Source: a virus
Length of the DNA: 43,722 nucleotides
Direction: 5' to 3' (one strand)
IMG/VR virus record: IMGVR_UViG_3300037628_000345
Span: 1 to 43,722 of that record
The notes below the pieces were generated by a model. The model did not search any database. It saw nothing but the letters and a program-made list of their open reading frames with translations, and was not told the DNA's origin. The translations under genes were made by a program, and so were the position numbers. Positions 18,243 through 38,510 of this stretch are shown piece after piece (position 1 is the stretch's first letter; the number at the start of each line of letters is the position of its first letter).

Positions 18243-19457
18243 ATGACAGTAGCAGCAGGATTGAGATCTACAAACGCCGGGGATGGAACGACCCCGACAT
18301 TCACCGCTCTTTTCTCAGCGAAGAACGAAGCAGACATAAGCGTTGTCCTCATCGACGACAGTGATCTCTCGATAGTCGAACAAGTTCTGAATACGGACTA
18401 TACAGTTGCCTTCGTGAACAGTATCCCGTCTGTCACTTTCACGACAATCCCGGCTGTGGACTTCACGGTGCTGATTTACCCGGCGGCCCCATTGACGCAA
18501 ACGGCTGACATCACAAACGGCGGGTCGTTATTCGGCTCGTCTATTGAGGAAGGACTGGACAGGAACACGATCAACATCCAGGATCTCCAGGACCGCATCG
18601 CAATGTGCATCCAAGTGCCACGCACGGACGCATCAGTGGACGCCCTTCTCGGGGCCACCGCCCGGACTGATAAGTATCTGTACTTCAACGCTACGACCGG
18701 CCAGCCGGAGATGAGAGACTTGGCCGTAGTTCAGGCAGATCTCGGAATGCTCGATGCCGGTCTCGCTGAGATTGCCGCACTGACCCCGGACAACGACGAC
18801 ATCATCCAGACCAAGGCCGGAGCATACGCCAGTCGATCAATGGCTGAAGTCGCTGTCGATCTCCTTGTGAAGGTCGCAGACGGACTGGTGGGTACACCGA
18901 GTGTTGCGTTTGCGGATGATACTGACACTGGCCTCTTCCGCATAGCAGCGAACAAGTTCGCACTGGTAACCAATGGTGTGTCCCGTCTTATTGTTGACGC
19001 TGACGGAAACATTACACTGCCATCAAACTCCGCTTTCCTGGCAATCGCAAACTCTGACATTCTCAATGTGACAGGCGACGGGACTGCATACACGATGTTG
19101 TTCAACACGGAAGTCCATGACCGAGGGGGTGACTATGTCCCTGCGACCGGGATCTTCACAGCCCGGGCCACGGGTCTTCATGACTTCAGTGGCGCGATCT
19201 CGTTGCTGTCCGTTGGTGGCATAACTAGTATTTTGGTGGAACTCGTAACCAGCAATCGAACGTATCAGCTCATAAATATCGCCGGGGCAGACAATGTTTC
19301 TGGCGTGACGACTTTGAACTGGTCTATGGCCGGTGCGGACATGGACGCTGCGGATACTGCATTTGTGCGTTTAACGGTAGGTGGCGGTTCCCTTGCTGTT
19401 GACATCGACGGCGATGCGGCACCGCGTACATTCTTCTCAGGGAGACTGGTAGCCTAA
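18243..19457 (+). CDS. Tail fibre protein with T7-type attachment domain
   Basis: A 404-aa protein with AAAGGA 7 nt before the ATG. Residues 1-135 follow the T7 gp17 N-terminal attachment pattern: ADISVVLIDD, LNTDYTVAF, VTFTTIPA, TDITNGG-type turn, then IEEGLDRNTINIQDLQDRI. This part should anchor the fibre to the tail. The C-terminal about 140 residues (LFNTEVHDRGGDYVPATGIF, then ARATGLHDFSGAISL) resemble C1q/TNF-like trimeric beta-jelly domains, a likely receptor-binding tip. It shares its stop with the next start (TAATG). Confidence 0.8.
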   Translation: MTVAAGLRSTNAGDGTTPTFTALFSAKNEADISVVLIDDSDLSIVEQVLNTDYTVAFVNSIPSVTFTTIPAVDFTVLIYPAAPLTQTADITNGGSLFGSSIEEGLDRNTINIQDLQDRIAMCIQVPRTDASVDALLGATARTDKYLYFNATTGQPEMRDLAVVQADLGMLDAGLAEIAALTPDNDDIIQTKAGAYASRSMAEVAVDLLVKVADGLVGTPSVAFADDTDTGLFRIAANKFALVTNGVSRLIVDADGNITLPSNSAFLAIANSDILNVTGDGTAYTMLFNTEVHDRGGDYVPATGIFTARATGLHDFSGAISLLSVGGITSILVELVTSNRTYQLINIAGADNVSGVTTLNWSMAGADMDAADTAFVRLTVGGGSLAVDIDGDAAPRTFFSGRLVA

Positions 19458-20935
19458 TGACAGCGGGTAACCGGGCAGGCCGGTCAATACGAGGTATACG
19501 AACGCCTTTACGGGAGAGCACTCTCGTCGGTCGCCTGTCGGCTGGAGACGGGCAAGCAGAAATGCTGGATATCTCTGACGTCCTCGGTTTCCTGAACCTG
19601 ACTGAGGAGAACATACAAGATCTTGTCGGGGGCATGCTGACGGATACATCCTCGGCAACGATGACGTATGATGACCCGGCTGGGACAATTCAAGTAGACG
19701 TGATACCAGAGTTTGTCGAAGACACCGTCGGTACTATGGTCGTTAACACAACGACAATCAACTTCACATACGACGATGGCGCCGGGTCACTCGCCGCCGA
19801 TGTCAATGACGATAGCATCACCCTCGCAAAAATTCAGGTAGCTGCGGCCAATTCAAAGTTGGTAGGTAGTGGTGCGTCAGGGTCCGGTGCAAACTACGTG
19901 GAACTGACCCTCGGCACAAACCTGTCCATAACTGGAACTACCTTGAACGCGGCAGGCGGGGGTGCATCCCCTCTGACAACAAAGGGGGACGTCTTTACAT
20001 ACGACACGGACGACCAGCGCCTGGCTGTTGGCGCCGACGGGGAAGTGCTCACAGCGGACGCCGCAGAGGCGACTGGGCTGAAGTGGGCAGCAGCGGCTGG
20101 TGGCGGGGGCGACTTTCTTGAGACGAATGAGGTCATCCATGTGCGGGACGAAAAAGCGACTGGAACGCACGGGGGATCATCCTCATCCGGTGACAATATC
20201 CGAACACTGAATACTGTGGTCACCAACACCCTGTCCGGGGCTTCCCTGTCGTCAAACCAGATAACCCTCCCTGCGGGAACATACTTGATTGATGCGTGGG
20301 GGATAGCAATGCGCTCCAATCAAACCCGGGCGATCTTGTATAACGTGACAGATGCCGCTGTTGAGCTTTTAGGCTCCGTCGAGTATTCGGGTCAGTCCGA
20401 TACTACGGCACTCCCGGCCCTTGTGCGTGGGCAGTTCACAATAACGTCAGAAAAAGACTTCGAGTTAAGACAGTACTTCAACAATGCCACAGCATCAATA
20501 GGGTTTGGGAACAGATCAAACGACGGCAGAACGGAAGTATATTCTGACGTTTACATACGGAAAATCAACGCCGCCGCCATTGTTGAACACAGTGTACAGA
20601 CGACTGACGCTACAGTCACCGACCTCCTGACTGTTGATGTAGGCTCGGGCGAGGCTGTCGCAATTGAAGTGTTTGGTATGGCCATAGAGCCTGGAAACGA
20701 AAAGTCCCTCGCCTTCAAGGTTCTTGGCAGTGCGTCCAACACAGGAGGGACAACAAGGCTCAACGGGTTTATAGTGGATATTGCAAGAGACGAGGCAGAC
20801 AGCCCCGGCGTCGCCGATTGGGATATTGATGTTGATATCGACGACACAGCCGACACCATCCGGGTGCGCGTCACTGGTGAGGCAGCCACCACAATTGACT
20901 GGCAGGGCAACCTGGCCAGTATTACGAGGTCATGA
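19457..20935 (+). CDS. Second tail fibre or spike protein
   Basis: A 492-aa protein with low-complexity Gly/Thr/Asp/Ala repeats typical of trimeric fibres. The motif ASPLTTKGDVFTYDTDDQRL, then GADGEVLTADAAEATGLKW, is a common phage fibre module. The C-terminal half is beta-rich and could be the receptor-binding part. It lacks the T7-type attachment domain, so it may dock onto the product of the preceding gene, to which it is coupled by TAATG. Confidence 0.75.
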   Translation: MTAGNRAGRSIRGIRTPLRESTLVGRLSAGDGQAEMLDISDVLGFLNLTEENIQDLVGGMLTDTSSATMTYDDPAGTIQVDVIPEFVEDTVGTMVVNTTTINFTYDDGAGSLAADVNDDSITLAKIQVAAANSKLVGSGASGSGANYVELTLGTNLSITGTTLNAAGGGASPLTTKGDVFTYDTDDQRLAVGADGEVLTADAAEATGLKWAAAAGGGGDFLETNEVIHVRDEKATGTHGGSSSSGDNIRTLNTVVTNTLSGASLSSNQITLPAGTYLIDAWGIAMRSNQTRAILYNVTDAAVELLGSVEYSGQSDTTALPALVRGQFTITSEKDFELRQYFNNATASIGFGNRSNDGRTEVYSDVYIRKINAAAIVEHSVQTTDATVTDLLTVDVGSGEAVAIEVFGMAIEPGNEKSLAFKVLGSASNTGGTTRLNGFIVDIARDEADSPGVADWDIDVDIDDTADTIRVRVTGEAATTIDWQGNLASITRS

Positions 20936-23408: not shown

Positions 23409-24158
23409 TCAGGATACATTATCCGGGTGGTCTTTGTCAAGAGCCGCAGTAATCGCATTCTGCAAGTTCGTACCATCGGACCGACAGGAGCCATTGTCCC
23501 CCTCAATCTCCTTCTGGAGGTTCGCCAGGGCACGCCAGGCAACCTTGGTAGAGTGCCGGACACCATCAGTGTCAAGGGTTCCAGCGCCCAGTATATGCCG
23601 CATGAGGGCATCCAGCTCGTCACCGGATTTGCTGCGGTCCCAGTGCAGAGGCTTGCCCGGGTTGTGTTGTTCGTTCCCAATCCGGGACAGTTTAGCCACC
23701 TCGGCCAAGGCATCAGGGAAGTAATTGATGCAACCACTGTAGAGGGGGATTGCCTTCCGGGCCTTGGCGTCGGATGGGAGACCAACAGAAGGGGCGCAGT
23801 ATCCTGTGGGTTCCTCCTTCTCTTTTCGGCGGTTCTCGCAAATGCGCATCGCACTTTTAACTGAAGACCCGCTAAGTGCTTGTTGGGATACGTCGAGTGC
23901 CATATCTTGCCAGCCTCCTATTCCCTCTCTCTGTATTATCTTCTGGTCCCCTGTTCCCTTCGTTCGGTATATCTCACCCTGCTCGGTCCAAGAATTTCCC
24001 ACCCGGGCTTTCTTCGGGCATGTGTGGACGTGACTGTCATAAAGTCTCGCGCCACATTGATTACACTTTCTTTGACCCGGCGGGATACTGTCAGGGCATG
24101 AATGTCCTTCATTCGGGTCATATCTCATTTGACATCTGTGACAGTATTTCGTTTTCAT
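23409..24158 (-). CDS. Zinc-ribbon protein with dATP/dGTP diphosphohydrolase-like domain
   Basis: A 249-aa protein. The start at 24158 has GGAG 6 nt upstream; an ATG at 24170 is an alternative. The N-terminus has two Cys pairs with HxC partners (KYCHRCQMRYDPNEGHSC, then RKCNQCGARLYDSHVHTC), likely zinc ribbons. The C-terminal about 100 residues (PLYSGCINYFPDALAEVAKL, then DELDALMRHILGAGTLD) match the all-alpha phage domain annotated as dATP/dGTP diphosphohydrolase (DUF5664-like). A role in dNTP pool control is plausible. No PurZ-like gene is present, so Z-genome chemistry is not implied. The N-terminal ribbons are unusual for this family. Confidence 0.7.
   Translation of the reverse strand: MKTKYCHRCQMRYDPNEGHSCPDSIPPGQRKCNQCGARLYDSHVHTCPKKARVGNSWTEQGEIYRTKGTGDQKIIQREGIGGWQDMALDVSQQALSGSSVKSAMRICENRRKEKEEPTGYCAPSVGLPSDAKARKAIPLYSGCINYFPDALAEVAKLSRIGNEQHNPGKPLHWDRSKSGDELDALMRHILGAGTLDTDGVRHSTKVAWRALANLQKEIEGDNGSCRSDGTNLQNAITAALDKDHPDNVS
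23411..23440 (-). promoter_or_regulatory. Lysis promoter, predicted leaderless start
   Basis: On the minus strand, TTGACA (23440-23435), an 18-nt spacer and TATCCT (23416-23411) lie inside the end of the upstream gene. GAGAGG and the ATG at 23404 follow directly. The transcription start should fall at the ATG. This gives the lysis genes a promoter separate from the replication block. Confidence 0.5.
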
Positions 24159-24180
24159 CATGCTCTCCATTTTCCATTGT
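24156..24180 (-). repeat. 25-bp direct repeat, copy 1 (RBS region)
   Basis: This 25-bp stretch is identical to 24391-24415. It contains the GGAGAGCATGATG translation-start region of the 249-aa gene. The other copy is also the 3' end of the phosphoesterase gene. Confidence 0.9.
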
Positions 24181-24393
24181 TTACAAATCTGTTGTGCCTT
24201 CTACGCCCTCTGCCCACTGGCAGTTTCCACCATCATGCTTTCCTGGGTCATGCACCTCCCCGCATCTGCGGCAGCGATACATCCCATGCGAGAGACGTTC
24301 CGACGATCCCCCTCCGCAACACGAATGCCCAATAGGAAGTTGCCCTTTACCAAAAGTTGTCCCGCAGACGCATTCCCTCTTCGGCATTTCCAT
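24181..24393 (-). CDS. Small zinc-ribbon protein
   Basis: A 70-aa Cys/His-rich protein. ECVCGTTFGKGQLPIGHSCC and YRCRRCGEVHDPGKHDGGNC form two ribbon-like units, the second similar to the first ribbon of the downstream 249-aa protein. The start at 24393 has GGAG 6 nt upstream and overlaps the stop of the phosphoesterase gene. With the duplicated start region, this suggests a tandem duplication of a ribbon gene. Nucleic-acid or protein binding is inferred. Confidence 0.65.
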   Translation of the reverse strand: MEMPKRECVCGTTFGKGQLPIGHSCCGGGSSERLSHGMYRCRRCGEVHDPGKHDGGNCQWAEGVEGTTDL

Positions 24394-24415
24394 CATGCTC
24401 TCCATTTTCCATTGT
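24391..24415 (-). repeat. 25-bp direct repeat, copy 2 (3' end of phosphoesterase gene)
   Basis: Identical to 24156-24180. Here it encodes the last residues (YNGKWRA) and stop of the phosphoesterase while providing the start region of the 70-aa ribbon gene. This copy is probably the ancestral one, because it is functional in two frames. Confidence 0.9.
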
Positions 24416-26104: not shown

Positions 26105-26467
26105 TCATCTTTCGGCGCAGAGTATAGGAATTTCACAATATTCATCCTCATTTATGGGCCCCAAAGCCCGAACAATTCGGTTCTCATCCCCATCTAAACC
26201 AAGCTCGTTATCCAGCACAATACGAAAACCGGCAATATGCTGGAGCATTCCCGTATCGCTATATGAAGCGCGCCCTATTGAAGCCTGATTTTCAAGATCC
26301 GTATACTGTACTAAAGAAACGTGGATGCGAATATCCGAATTAATCAGATCGACGTTCTCTTCAAACAAAAGTACTTGGGCTTGCCCCAATTTCCCTAGCG
26401 TGAGGCCTACAGGCCCGGAACACCCAAAGTCACTGACTATCGTTCCTTTACTCTTTGTGCATCTCAT
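26105..26467 (-). CDS. Hypothetical protein after RuvC-like gene
   Basis: A 120-aa protein. The ATG at 26467 overlaps the resolvase stop (TGATG); the longer reading upstream is a shadow of the resolvase gene. It is acidic, with alternating strands (QAQVLLFEENVDLINSDIRI) and a C-terminal CEIPILCAER. The family is not recognised. The coupled start suggests a replication or recombination accessory. Confidence 0.6.
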   Translation of the reverse strand: MRCTKSKGTIVSDFGCSGPVGLTLGKLGQAQVLLFEENVDLINSDIRIHVSLVQYTDLENQASIGRASYSDTGMLQHIAGFRIVLDNELGLDGDENRIVRALGPINEDEYCEIPILCAER

Positions 26468-26928
26468 CAGCCTATCTCCATTGTTGCTTTCACGTAGTGC
26501 CACATGCAGACTGCATCGGCAGAGTGTTCGTCCAGGTCCAGACCCGTCAATTCTTTTGCCCGTTCGATCATCGGGTTCTTGGACCCTTGTTTCTTCCCGG
26601 TTCCGGTTGCCCACTGCCGGATCTTCTGATTAGACGGGTCCAGGATTGCAGCCTGGTATTGGTCGGCCAGGGCCTCAATGATCCCGGCGTACCCCCATCC
26701 GGCGCGAGTGGCCCCCAGTCCCCGGTTAAAGGGCTTCTCGTAAGCGACAACGTCCGGGCCTTCCTGCAAGAAGTATCTGTCCAGGAAACGCATCGCATTC
26801 CCAAATCTCCTTGGCCGGAACTCATCCGCACCCCAGCCTTTAGGAGGATCACCAAGAAACTCCGTGTGGGCATCTTCCCCATTGAAGACGCCGATGAACT
26901 TGCCGAGGTCGATTGCGATGAGTTTCAT
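26467..26928 (-). CDS. RuvC-like Holliday junction resolvase
   Basis: A 153-aa protein with the RNase H-like resolvase arrangement: D7 in IAIDLGK, E64 in VVAYEKPF, and H135 and D138 in DEHSADAV. These are the expected metal-binding positions. It should cut branched DNA produced during replication and recombination and clear it before packaging. It is slightly shorter than bacterial RuvC and of typical phage size. It overlaps its neighbours by ATGA and TGATG, so it belongs to the polymerase operon. Confidence 0.85.
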   Translation of the reverse strand: MKLIAIDLGKFIGVFNGEDAHTEFLGDPPKGWGADEFRPRRFGNAMRFLDRYFLQEGPDVVAYEKPFNRGLGATRAGWGYAGIIEALADQYQAAILDPSNQKIRQWATGTGKKQGSKNPMIERAKELTGLDLDEHSADAVCMWHYVKATMEIG

Positions 26929-35990: not shown

Positions 35991-38510
35991 ATGGCCAAGT
36001 CAAGAAGTTTCTCAGAAAAACATCGCATTGCGCGGGAGTGGGCCGAGGCCGGTTTCCACGTATTCCCGTGCGTGCCAAATATGAAAGTCCCCATGCACAG
36101 CGGGGGCTTCAAGACTGCCACGACCGACTTGGCCCAGGTTGACAAGTGGTGGTCCGAGTGTCCCGAGGCGAACATAGGGTGTGCCCCTGCCGCTTCGGGA
36201 CATTTTGTCCTGGATGTAGATGATAAAGGATATAAACATGGTTCCGAAACTCTACGAAAGCTTGAGCAGACAAATGGTAGCCTGGCTACAACATTTACCG
36301 TATCCACTCCCTCCGGGGGCCGTCATCTTTGGTTCGCAGGAAGTGCTCCAAGCACTGCTGAAAGAATTGGGGAGGGGCTCGACACACGGGGCAAGGGGGG
36401 GTACGTCCTGCTTCCTGGGTCTGCCGCTGATGGAGGACAATATACTACGGAGCGACAGGCTGCAATTGGCCTTGGCCCGTCCTGGATCAGTGCCCTCCTG
36501 TCGGTCTCATTACGTGATACTGAGCGAGCTATATCTGAAGCTGACGACAGTGCCCGCAACATCCGACGAGCCACAACCTACCTCGAAGACCTTGTCCGGG
36601 GAGGAACTGTGGCAGTCAGTGGTGCAGGCGGCAACTCACTAACTTTCAAAACGGCCTGCATGTTGCGAGATATTGGCATCTCTGAAGACATGACAGTTGA
36701 CTTGATACTCGATCACTGGAATGATGCCTGTGATCCACCCTGGACAGAAGAGGAACTGACCGATGAAATCCACTCTCCCATTTACCACGCATATCGCTAT
36801 GCAGAGAACGAAGCAGGCTCAAAGGGACTACGAGATGACCTCTCGGACTTCACCGGTATCCGAGGCGCCGACGCCCCCGACGATGGTGATGGTCATGACC
36901 GAGAAGGGCGGACGGATGGTCCCGGCGAATTCTATCCCCGAGACGAGACCGAACAAGACAACCGACCGGAACCCGAATGGGTGGTACCAGGATGGTTCCA
37001 AAAAAACAGCACCATCCTTCTCTACGGGCCGCCTGAAAGCTACAAATCTTTCGCCGCACTGGATATCGCCCTGTCGTTCGCGTCCGGGAGAAAGCCCCTC
37101 GGACTTGGTTACTCGACAACAGGAGGACAACAGCATCCGGGCGAAAGCCCAAAGGTATCTGGCGAACCAGAAGACCCTGATGGACTGCGATCTCAAGGAC
37201 GTAATCCCTCTTGCACGGTCAATGGACCGCGAGATGGAGAAACGTCAGTGGGGCAAGGCTCCTGGTCAAGTGGCCCTGGACCCGGGTATGTCCGGTTCAG
37301 AGGTATCCGTGGTGCGGACACCCGAGGGCAACCATCACGTATTCACCAACGTGAAGGAACCGATGACTGCGACGGAAGTCCAGAACCGGACATACCAACA
37401 CCAGATGGAGCCGAAGTTTCTTCAGCCACTCATAGAAGCCAACATAAAAAGGATGGAAGAAGCATTCGCTCTCAAACCCTCCCTTCTGAGAGACGTGCTG
37501 ACGGACGACGAAATGCGGGACCATCTGAAGGCGGTACCCTTACCGAAGGAACCGATGACTGCGACGGAAGTCCGGCAGCGTCAAGCAGACTGGAAAGTAC
37601 CCTCTCCGGCGTTTCAGATCCTACTGGACGATTATCACAAACAACTCGAAGCAGTGCTACTATCTACGCCGCCGGTGAAGGAGCCATCGGCATCGAACGA
37701 AAGCGCCGACCGGCCTGGAGAGCACATCGACTTGAGACCCGGGGGATTGAATTTTACTCCGTGTCCGCAGTCCCTCTTATCCGGAGCCCCGAAAGCATCA
37801 AAGGCTTCATTCAAGCCATTCAAGATCGACTGGGAAAAGGTCGCAAAGGAACAAATGCGCAAACTCGCAATCCAGGACTGATAGTCCTCGACACTCTGTC
37901 CCGTATGATGGCGGGCATGAATGAGAACGATGCAGCGGATGCCTCCTTGGCCATAGAAGCCATTGAAGCAATCAAGAGGGCCTTCGACTGCACCGTCCTC
38001 GTTATACACCACACCGGCAAGGATGAGAAGTCAGAGCGCGGCTCCTCAGTCTTCCGGGCTGGTTTCGATACCCTTATATCCTGCAAGGCGAACCAGACAC
38101 ATCGTCTCCTCACCATTGAAGTCACCAAACAGAAAGACGCTGAGAAGCCCGGGCCTATCACCCTGAAGGGCCACCGCGTTCTGAACAGTCTTGCGTTCTC
38201 TCAGGCCAATATAGAGGAAGTCGATCTTGCTGCTCAACGCGAAGGACCGGACCAGAACGCGTTGATCCGGACGGACGTTGGCAAGTATATGCGGGAGAAC
38301 GGCATCAAGGGTCTCGGCAACGCGATCACGACGAAAGTCCTGGCTCATTCCGTTCTCGAATTCCAGGGTAAACTCCCCGTAGAGTGGGAAGAACAAACCG
38401 TAGCCCTTGACATAATGATGAAGGCCCTCCGGAAATTATCCAAAGGGCCTCTATCAGGGTACGTTATAAGTATTCCGAATACCGCCCTTATGTGGGCTCT
38501 CCCAGAATAG
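35991..38510 (+). CDS. Primase-polymerase fused to RepA-like ATPase, with an internal insertion
   Basis: An 839-aa protein, the only plus-strand gene in the replication half. Residues 1-180 are a Prim-Pol domain: VLDVDDK (catalytic acids), TPSGGRHLWF and RGKGGYVLLPGS. Residues about 190-280 resemble a primase C-terminal helical domain. A linker leads to a RepA/RecA-like ATPase: Walker A GPPESYKSF near residue 346, the strand ATIYAAGEG near 555, Walker B GLIVLDTLSR near 630, and VIHHTGKDEKSERGSSVFRA. In relatives, Walker A and the AGEG strand are about 30-40 residues apart. Here about 177 Gly/Ser/Arg/Asp-rich residues intervene, and the +1 frame of that stretch looks like real protein. It should prime and unwind DNA. 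Whether the insert is tolerated, processed out or bypassed is unknown. Confidence 0.88.
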   Translation: MAKSRSFSEKHRIAREWAEAGFHVFPCVPNMKVPMHSGGFKTATTDLAQVDKWWSECPEANIGCAPAASGHFVLDVDDKGYKHGSETLRKLEQTNGSLATTFTVSTPSGGRHLWFAGSAPSTAERIGEGLDTRGKGGYVLLPGSAADGGQYTTERQAAIGLGPSWISALLSVSLRDTERAISEADDSARNIRRATTYLEDLVRGGTVAVSGAGGNSLTFKTACMLRDIGISEDMTVDLILDHWNDACDPPWTEEELTDEIHSPIYHAYRYAENEAGSKGLRDDLSDFTGIRGADAPDDGDGHDREGRTDGPGEFYPRDETEQDNRPEPEWVVPGWFQKNSTILLYGPPESYKSFAALDIALSFASGRKPLGLGYSTTGGQQHPGESPKVSGEPEDPDGLRSQGRNPSCTVNGPRDGETSVGQGSWSSGPGPGYVRFRGIRGADTRGQPSRIHQREGTDDCDGSPEPDIPTPDGAEVSSATHRSQHKKDGRSIRSQTLPSERRADGRRNAGPSEGGTLTEGTDDCDGSPAASSRLESTLSGVSDPTGRLSQTTRSSATIYAAGEGAIGIERKRRPAWRAHRLETRGIEFYSVSAVPLIRSPESIKGFIQAIQDRLGKGRKGTNAQTRNPGLIVLDTLSRMMAGMNENDAADASLAIEAIEAIKRAFDCTVLVIHHTGKDEKSERGSSVFRAGFDTLISCKANQTHRLLTIEVTKQKDAEKPGPITLKGHRVLNSLAFSQANIEEVDLAAQREGPDQNALIRTDVGKYMRENGIKGLGNAITTKVLAHSVLEFQGKLPVEWEEQTVALDIMMKALRKLSKGPLSGYVISIPNTALMWALPE
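37121..37126 (+). promoter_or_regulatory. Perfect internal Shine-Dalgarno AGGAGG
   Basis: AGGAGG lies inside the primase-polymerase coding region at the left edge of the insertion. Eight nt downstream, in the +1 frame, is an ATC (37135), and the first +1 ATG is at 37180. It may initiate a nested product or be a remnant of the inserted gene's own start region. Confidence 0.4.
37180..37881 (+). CDS. Candidate nested +1-frame gene within primase-polymerase
   Basis: A 233-aa ORF from the first +1 ATG, with a weak GAAG 6 nt upstream; initiation at the ATC 37135 behind AGGAGG would add 15 residues. Residues 1-155 (MDCDLKDVIPLARSMDREME onward) look like a genuine helical protein and contain two copies of KEPMTATEV, each followed by an Arg-containing helix with P-x-F and an EA pair. 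MTATEV is a hallmark of podovirus portal proteins, including the portal in this genome. The last about 75 residues overlap the essential ATPase core in another frame. Expression is unproven; it may be a fossil frame of inserted DNA. Confidence 0.35.
   Translation: MDCDLKDVIPLARSMDREMEKRQWGKAPGQVALDPGMSGSEVSVVRTPEGNHHVFTNVKEPMTATEVQNRTYQHQMEPKFLQPLIEANIKRMEEAFALKPSLLRDVLTDDEMRDHLKAVPLPKEPMTATEVRQRQADWKVPSPAFQILLDDYHKQLEAVLLSTPPVKEPSASNESADRPGEHIDLRPGGLNFTPCPQSLLSGAPKASKASFKPFKIDWEKVAKEQMRKLAIQD
37353..37381 (+). repeat. 29-bp direct repeat, copy 1
   Basis: Identical to 37545-37573, 192 nt (64 codons) away. In the +1 frame it encodes KEPMTATEV. The following residues of the two copies remain similar (R near +3, P-x-F, then a Lys/Glu-Ala end), which implies duplication of a protein module of about 38 residues. 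Confidence 0.9.
37545..37573 (+). repeat. 29-bp direct repeat, copy 2
   Basis: Second copy of the KEPMTATEV-coding repeat. Its module ends with LEAVL, just where the primase-polymerase frame resumes recognisable ATPase sequence. Confidence 0.9.

Follow-up and report, generated by a model that had tools for sequence, protein, structure and literature searches.

A 525-bp insertion with +1-frame coding texture in the ATPase domain of a podovirus primase-polymerase

Alignment with nine homologues shows that about 525 bp are inserted in the ATPase domain of the primase-polymerase of this phage, and the inserted DNA has the coding texture of a gene in the +1 frame rather than in the frame of the primase. 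Our preferred account, held at little better than even confidence, is that an internal piece of a gene was captured off frame and is translated, as part of the primase, into a disordered loop. The window, the whole stretch of DNA analysed here, is the entire virus record IMGVR_UViG_3300037628_000345, a single contig of 43,722 bases. Judging from its terminase, portal (head-tail adaptor in PHROGs), capsid and tail genes, this contig is a podovirus. Two syntenic contigs of like length, G040 (44,550) and G041 (43,975), have terminase, portal, capsid, DNA polymerase, SNF2 helicase and primase genes in common with it, at about 36–56% identity. The features that define the insertion are as follows.

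35991–38510, + strand: primase-polymerase with RepA-like ATPase, 839 aa including the insertion (Pfam and PDB profile matches)
37020–37058, + strand: Walker A strand and helix LLYGPPESYKSFA, just 5' of the insertion; aligns with LFGPPGSLKSYLA and similar stretches of homologues
37116–37120, + strand: left ACAAC, insertion edge, microhomology or 5-bp target duplication (sequence reading)
37121–37645, + strand: inserted segment, 525 bp (175 codons), missing in nine homologues; codon-phase segment 37122–37655
37641–37645, + strand: right ACAAC, insertion edge (sequence reading)
37659–37685, + strand: next ATPase strand TIYAAGEGA, 3' of the insertion; aligns with VVYVAGEGA and similar stretches of homologues

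The primase ORF is a single uninterrupted frame. Its product has an N-terminal Prim-Pol (AEP) domain (Pfam PF09250, residues 14–165, E=2e-35) and an AAA_25 ATPase domain (Pfam PF13481, E=2.2e-28), the best stretch of which covers residues 553–679. A profile built from the primase and five homologues matched RSF1010 RepA (1g8y, E=2.4e-10) in the PDB, together with the ORF904 structures, and the RepA/AAA_25 ATPase motifs are intact and aligned with those of the homologues. Domain order, Walker motifs and the C-terminal part are thus shared with other phage primase-polymerases (PF09250 and PF13481; RSF1010 RepA 1g8y), from which this enzyme differs in that the Walker A helix and the strand that follows are about 175 residues further apart. 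An earlier reading of this DNA, made from the sequence only, had stated that these two elements lie close together in RepA-like ATPases, and this proved correct: they are separated by about 12 residues in 1g8y and by about 5–18 residues in the nine homologues aligned (L006, L092, L093, L094, L097, L148, L149, L150 and L152; 27 to ~42% identity). A short link of this kind, usual though not strictly defining for RepA-like ATPases, is not found here. The alignment, which had been proposed as a check, found the segment missing in 9/9 of these proteins. In the closest homologue (L148, ~42–43% identity), the flank-to-flank length agrees within 1–2 residues with that of our protein without the insert. 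Joining the edges at ACAAC, one among several possible joins, yields the protein GLGYSTTRSSATIYAAGEG, which is within 1–2 residues of the corresponding stretch of L148. Sequence reading revealed no homopolymer at either edge. No second carrier of the segment was found, and the insertion is known from one contig; a broader primase alignment (A3) was rejected as too divergent for scanning collections. Upstream of Walker A, at 37000–37007, the primase gene has seven A residues followed by C, phased A AAA AAC, a candidate slippery site at which the loss of one A in transcription would putatively lead into the +1 ORF.

The primase gene was scanned for the maximal off-frame-looking segment, with frame statistics trained on the other genes of this phage. 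The best segment, 37122–37655, scored 39.1 nats, against 2.6–7.6 for ten other genes; this unbiased scan returned almost exactly the segment (37123–37654) previously reported as coding in another frame, and its edges concur with those given by homology. In sliding windows, the texture shifted to the +1 frame inside the insert and then back to the primase frame. The mean codon score of the insert was 0.183 in the +1 frame (true genes 0.163 ± 0.046; off-frame maximum 0.062) and −0.122 in the primase frame, which is mid-range for off-frame readings (true-gene minimum 0.059), whereas the flanks on either side retain good primase-frame codon scores and motifs. The in-frame residues of the insert (G 16%, S 14%, R 10%, P 10%, D 9%; Met absent) are indeed rich in Gly, Ser, Asp and Arg, and composition and codon scores agree with the earlier description of them and of the normal texture of the +1 frame. 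Structure prediction, also among the proposed checks, gave a pLDDT of about 25 for residues 367–554 (AlphaFold, from a shallow alignment), which fits disorder.

Both frames had been described as open for about 530 bp; they are, and the +1 ORF extends further than had been claimed.

36763–37881, + strand: +1-frame ORF, 372 aa, overlapping the primase; consistent protein-like texture only within the insertion

With the +1 protein kept and its codons recoded synonymously, the primase frame of the insert acquired a mean of 8.7 stops under codon usage and of 6.1 under codon permutation, as against none in the actual sequence; it stayed free of stops in 5e-5 and 2e-4 of the trials, respectively. Of 5326 windows of 175 codons taken from the genes of this phage, none was open in that relative frame. 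With the in-frame residues fixed instead, the +1 frame was open by chance in 5–7% of trials; openness of the +1 ORF over 372 codons, given the primase residues, had an overall P of 0.0014–0.0028, and its flanks outside the insert are open about as often as chance gives. The primase frame has therefore been filtered for openness (0 stops versus 6–9 expected; P of 5e-5 to 2e-4 for this site alone, or ~0.01–0.03 per window with a rough factor of 100–200 for a window-wide search), but no such claim can be made for the +1 frame. The match between the homology edges and the codon edges is independent of the window-search factor.

The +1 peptide of the insert has a balanced composition and a pI of 7.2; an AlphaFold prediction for it alone (pLDDT 45) was uninformative. 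No endonuclease, HNH or any other domain or family was found for it in Pfam, PHROGs, NCBIfam or the PDB. Likewise, no relative or donor was found in phage and plasmid records, viral contigs, species genomes, 42 related phage records and the syntenic relatives; donors below roughly 75% identity could, by our estimate, have escaped the pattern scans, which covered viral and species genomes. The insert contains a direct repeat in two copies.

37353–37388, + strand: direct repeat copy 1, KEPMTATEVQNR in the +1 frame; 29/29 identical core
37545–37580, + strand: direct repeat copy 2, KEPMTATEVRQR in the +1 frame; 192 bp from copy 1

These copies (36 nt at 92% identity, with the core identical) are longer than the repeats in 500/500 synonymous shuffles, and their identical 29-bp core encodes KEPMTATEV, present twice in the +1 peptide. 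Since synonymous shuffling does not reproduce this identical repeat, a duplication at the DNA level has occurred in the insert. Several resemblances were examined and rejected. KEPMTATEV matched a single protein, L107, which is short and unrelated. The pattern MTATEVxxRT recurs in portals, including that of this phage, but a profile of 77 portals scored the insert no higher than the best shuffles. A resemblance to terminase reached E values of 4 or more only, and a 14-bp inverted repeat was within the range of synonymous shuffles.

Out-of-frame insertions of this kind have a precedent. In ShiLan, an insertion of 202 aa hides an HNH endonuclease in another frame (PMC11855218; earlier PMC9957025), has a GTG start 18 bp in and a stop at its end, and is present patchily in many phages (PMC11855218). 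The insert studied here resembles the ShiLan type in its similar size (175 aa) and location in a phage DNA-metabolism gene, in a host frame that lacks stops and is meaningless or disordered where another frame is protein-like, in the lack of an intron or intein signature, and in its absence from relatives (here, nine homologues). Unlike that of ShiLan, it lies in a variable loop of a replication enzyme, and no recognisable domain was found in it. One carrier was found, the closest relative of which is 42–43% identical. We have not assigned it to the ShiLan type, because the HNH domain, a conventional start near the 5' edge and a stop are all missing. Overprinted viral genes, in which the new frame usually arises within an old host gene (PMC8227390), also have two open frames, as found here over ~530 bp, but in this case the host-frame reading appears to be the new one, the alternative frame having the old coding texture.

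In the account we prefer as the most economical, about 525 bp of coding DNA, an internal piece of some gene with the codon habits of this phage, would have been inserted off frame into the ATPase loop that joins the Walker A helix to the strand after it, probably through illegitimate recombination, for which the ACAAC shared by the edges would have supplied the short homology. The primase gene would stay alive only if the insert measured a multiple of three and was open in the host frame; the segment observed would thus be the survivor of a rare capture. The ribosome would go straight through it, and the 839-aa enzyme so made would carry on its ATPase a long, disordered loop rich in Gly, Ser, Arg and Asp. 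We infer the recombination route, the read-through and the tolerance of the loop, and likewise the capture itself, because the donor gene was not found in any collection searched. The +1 frame lacks a conventional start near the 5' edge of the insert, has no stop inside it and runs past both edges, as an internal gene fragment predicts; this frame is most likely a relic rather than an expressed gene. Against capture, a random off-frame fragment of this length would be open in about 1/10,000 cases and of the right length in 1/3, making the event improbable without many trials. The sequence-only reading had suggested that foreign coding DNA entered out of frame and was kept open; out-of-frame entry and the open host frame stand, whereas "foreign" is unproven, because the codon usage of the insert is that of this phage and the donor was not found. 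That reading had also envisaged a nested protein, and the possible starts bear on this.

37121–37137, + strand: AGGAGG, first bases of the insert; 8 nt 5' of an in-phase ATC; −10.3 kcal/mol with the anti-Shine-Dalgarno sequence

It is possible, but unlikely, that the +1 frame is a working nested gene, perhaps selfish, reached by internal initiation, with the host frame kept open to the benefit of host-gene survival, as has been proposed for ShiLan. Its texture equals that of real genes, it is open over 372 codons (overall P 0.0014–0.0028), the ATG at 36763 has a fair Shine-Dalgarno sequence (AGAGGAA, 7 nt upstream), the strong AGGAGG occupies the first bases of the insert, and the ShiLan insertion is a direct precedent (PMC11855218). 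However, the databases yielded no domain, the insert has no stop and thus no conventional start-plus-stop pair, the +1 flanks alone are open about as by chance, and no second carrier was found. AGGAGG is the strongest ribosome site, but the in-phase ATC after it is a poor start and the motif occurs 34 times in the window, counting both strands; this pair may be the relic of a translation start, and we treat it as a lead only. We give still less credence to the idea of a new class of selfish or nested gene, hidden out of frame within a replication enzyme and devoid of HNH, with both frames shaped to stay open.

Removal of the segment, by a novel self-splicing intron, an intein or programmed bypassing, seems very improbable. 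ATPase genes are frequent targets of inteins, and the RNA of the insert folds better than dinucleotide shuffles (z about −2.9) and than most coding windows, but it is not unique in this: a coding stretch of the tail fibre gene (19457–20027) folds equally strongly (z −2.9). The RNA splicing suggested earlier found no backing, as no Rfam intron family matched the insert at E≤1 (covariance models); the in-frame residues had no Pfam match at E≤10, Hint included, and no Hint, LAGLIDADG or HNH domain was found in either frame. Moreover, an excised intron would need no open host frame, and ribosome bypass is not needed, because the primase frame has no stop to skip. An artefact or a dead genome, that is, a chimeric contig or a defective phage with a broken primase, is improbable, if less so than removal. 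The segment is known from a single contig, with no further copy, and its edges have just five bases in common; nevertheless, the probability that a chimera formed by chance has a length divisible by three and is open is only ~2e-5 to 7e-5, the segment uses codons as this phage does, and the flanking motifs are intact. Least credible of all is the in-frame insertion of a domain with two compensating frameshifts, erroneous or programmed, at the edges: it would account for the +1 texture inside the insert and the frame-0 texture on either flank, but it leaves the open primase frame (P≤2e-4) unexplained, there is no homopolymer at the edges, and the domain is in no homologue.

In phage methylases, which are dispensable in relatives, insertions out of frame with a host gene that stays readable have been described before; the present one affects a replication primase, in its ATPase domain. 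Provided that it is real and expressed, it would represent the gain, in a single step, of a long and wholly new protein segment by an important enzyme, and hidden-frame elements may then form a class wider than HNH endonucleases. More cases could be sought in all phage genes with the codon-phase scan, which is one short script.

Three observations concern other parts of the genome. An ORF on the − strand (26105–26614) resembles part of the major capsid protein of this phage (5593–6477; 33% identity over 89 aa, E=7e-7 pairwise) and the capsid protein of G041 (28% over 131 aa); on this resemblance, it is a partial, diverged copy of the capsid gene, located in the opposite half of the genome. A 29-bp direct repeat (24152–24180 and 24387–24415) is 96.6% identical. 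Finally, the − strand gene at 23409–24170 encodes a protein with a dATP/dGTP diphosphohydrolase N-terminal domain (PF18909), in which a 92-residue stretch is 74% identical to G040, far above the other shared genes.
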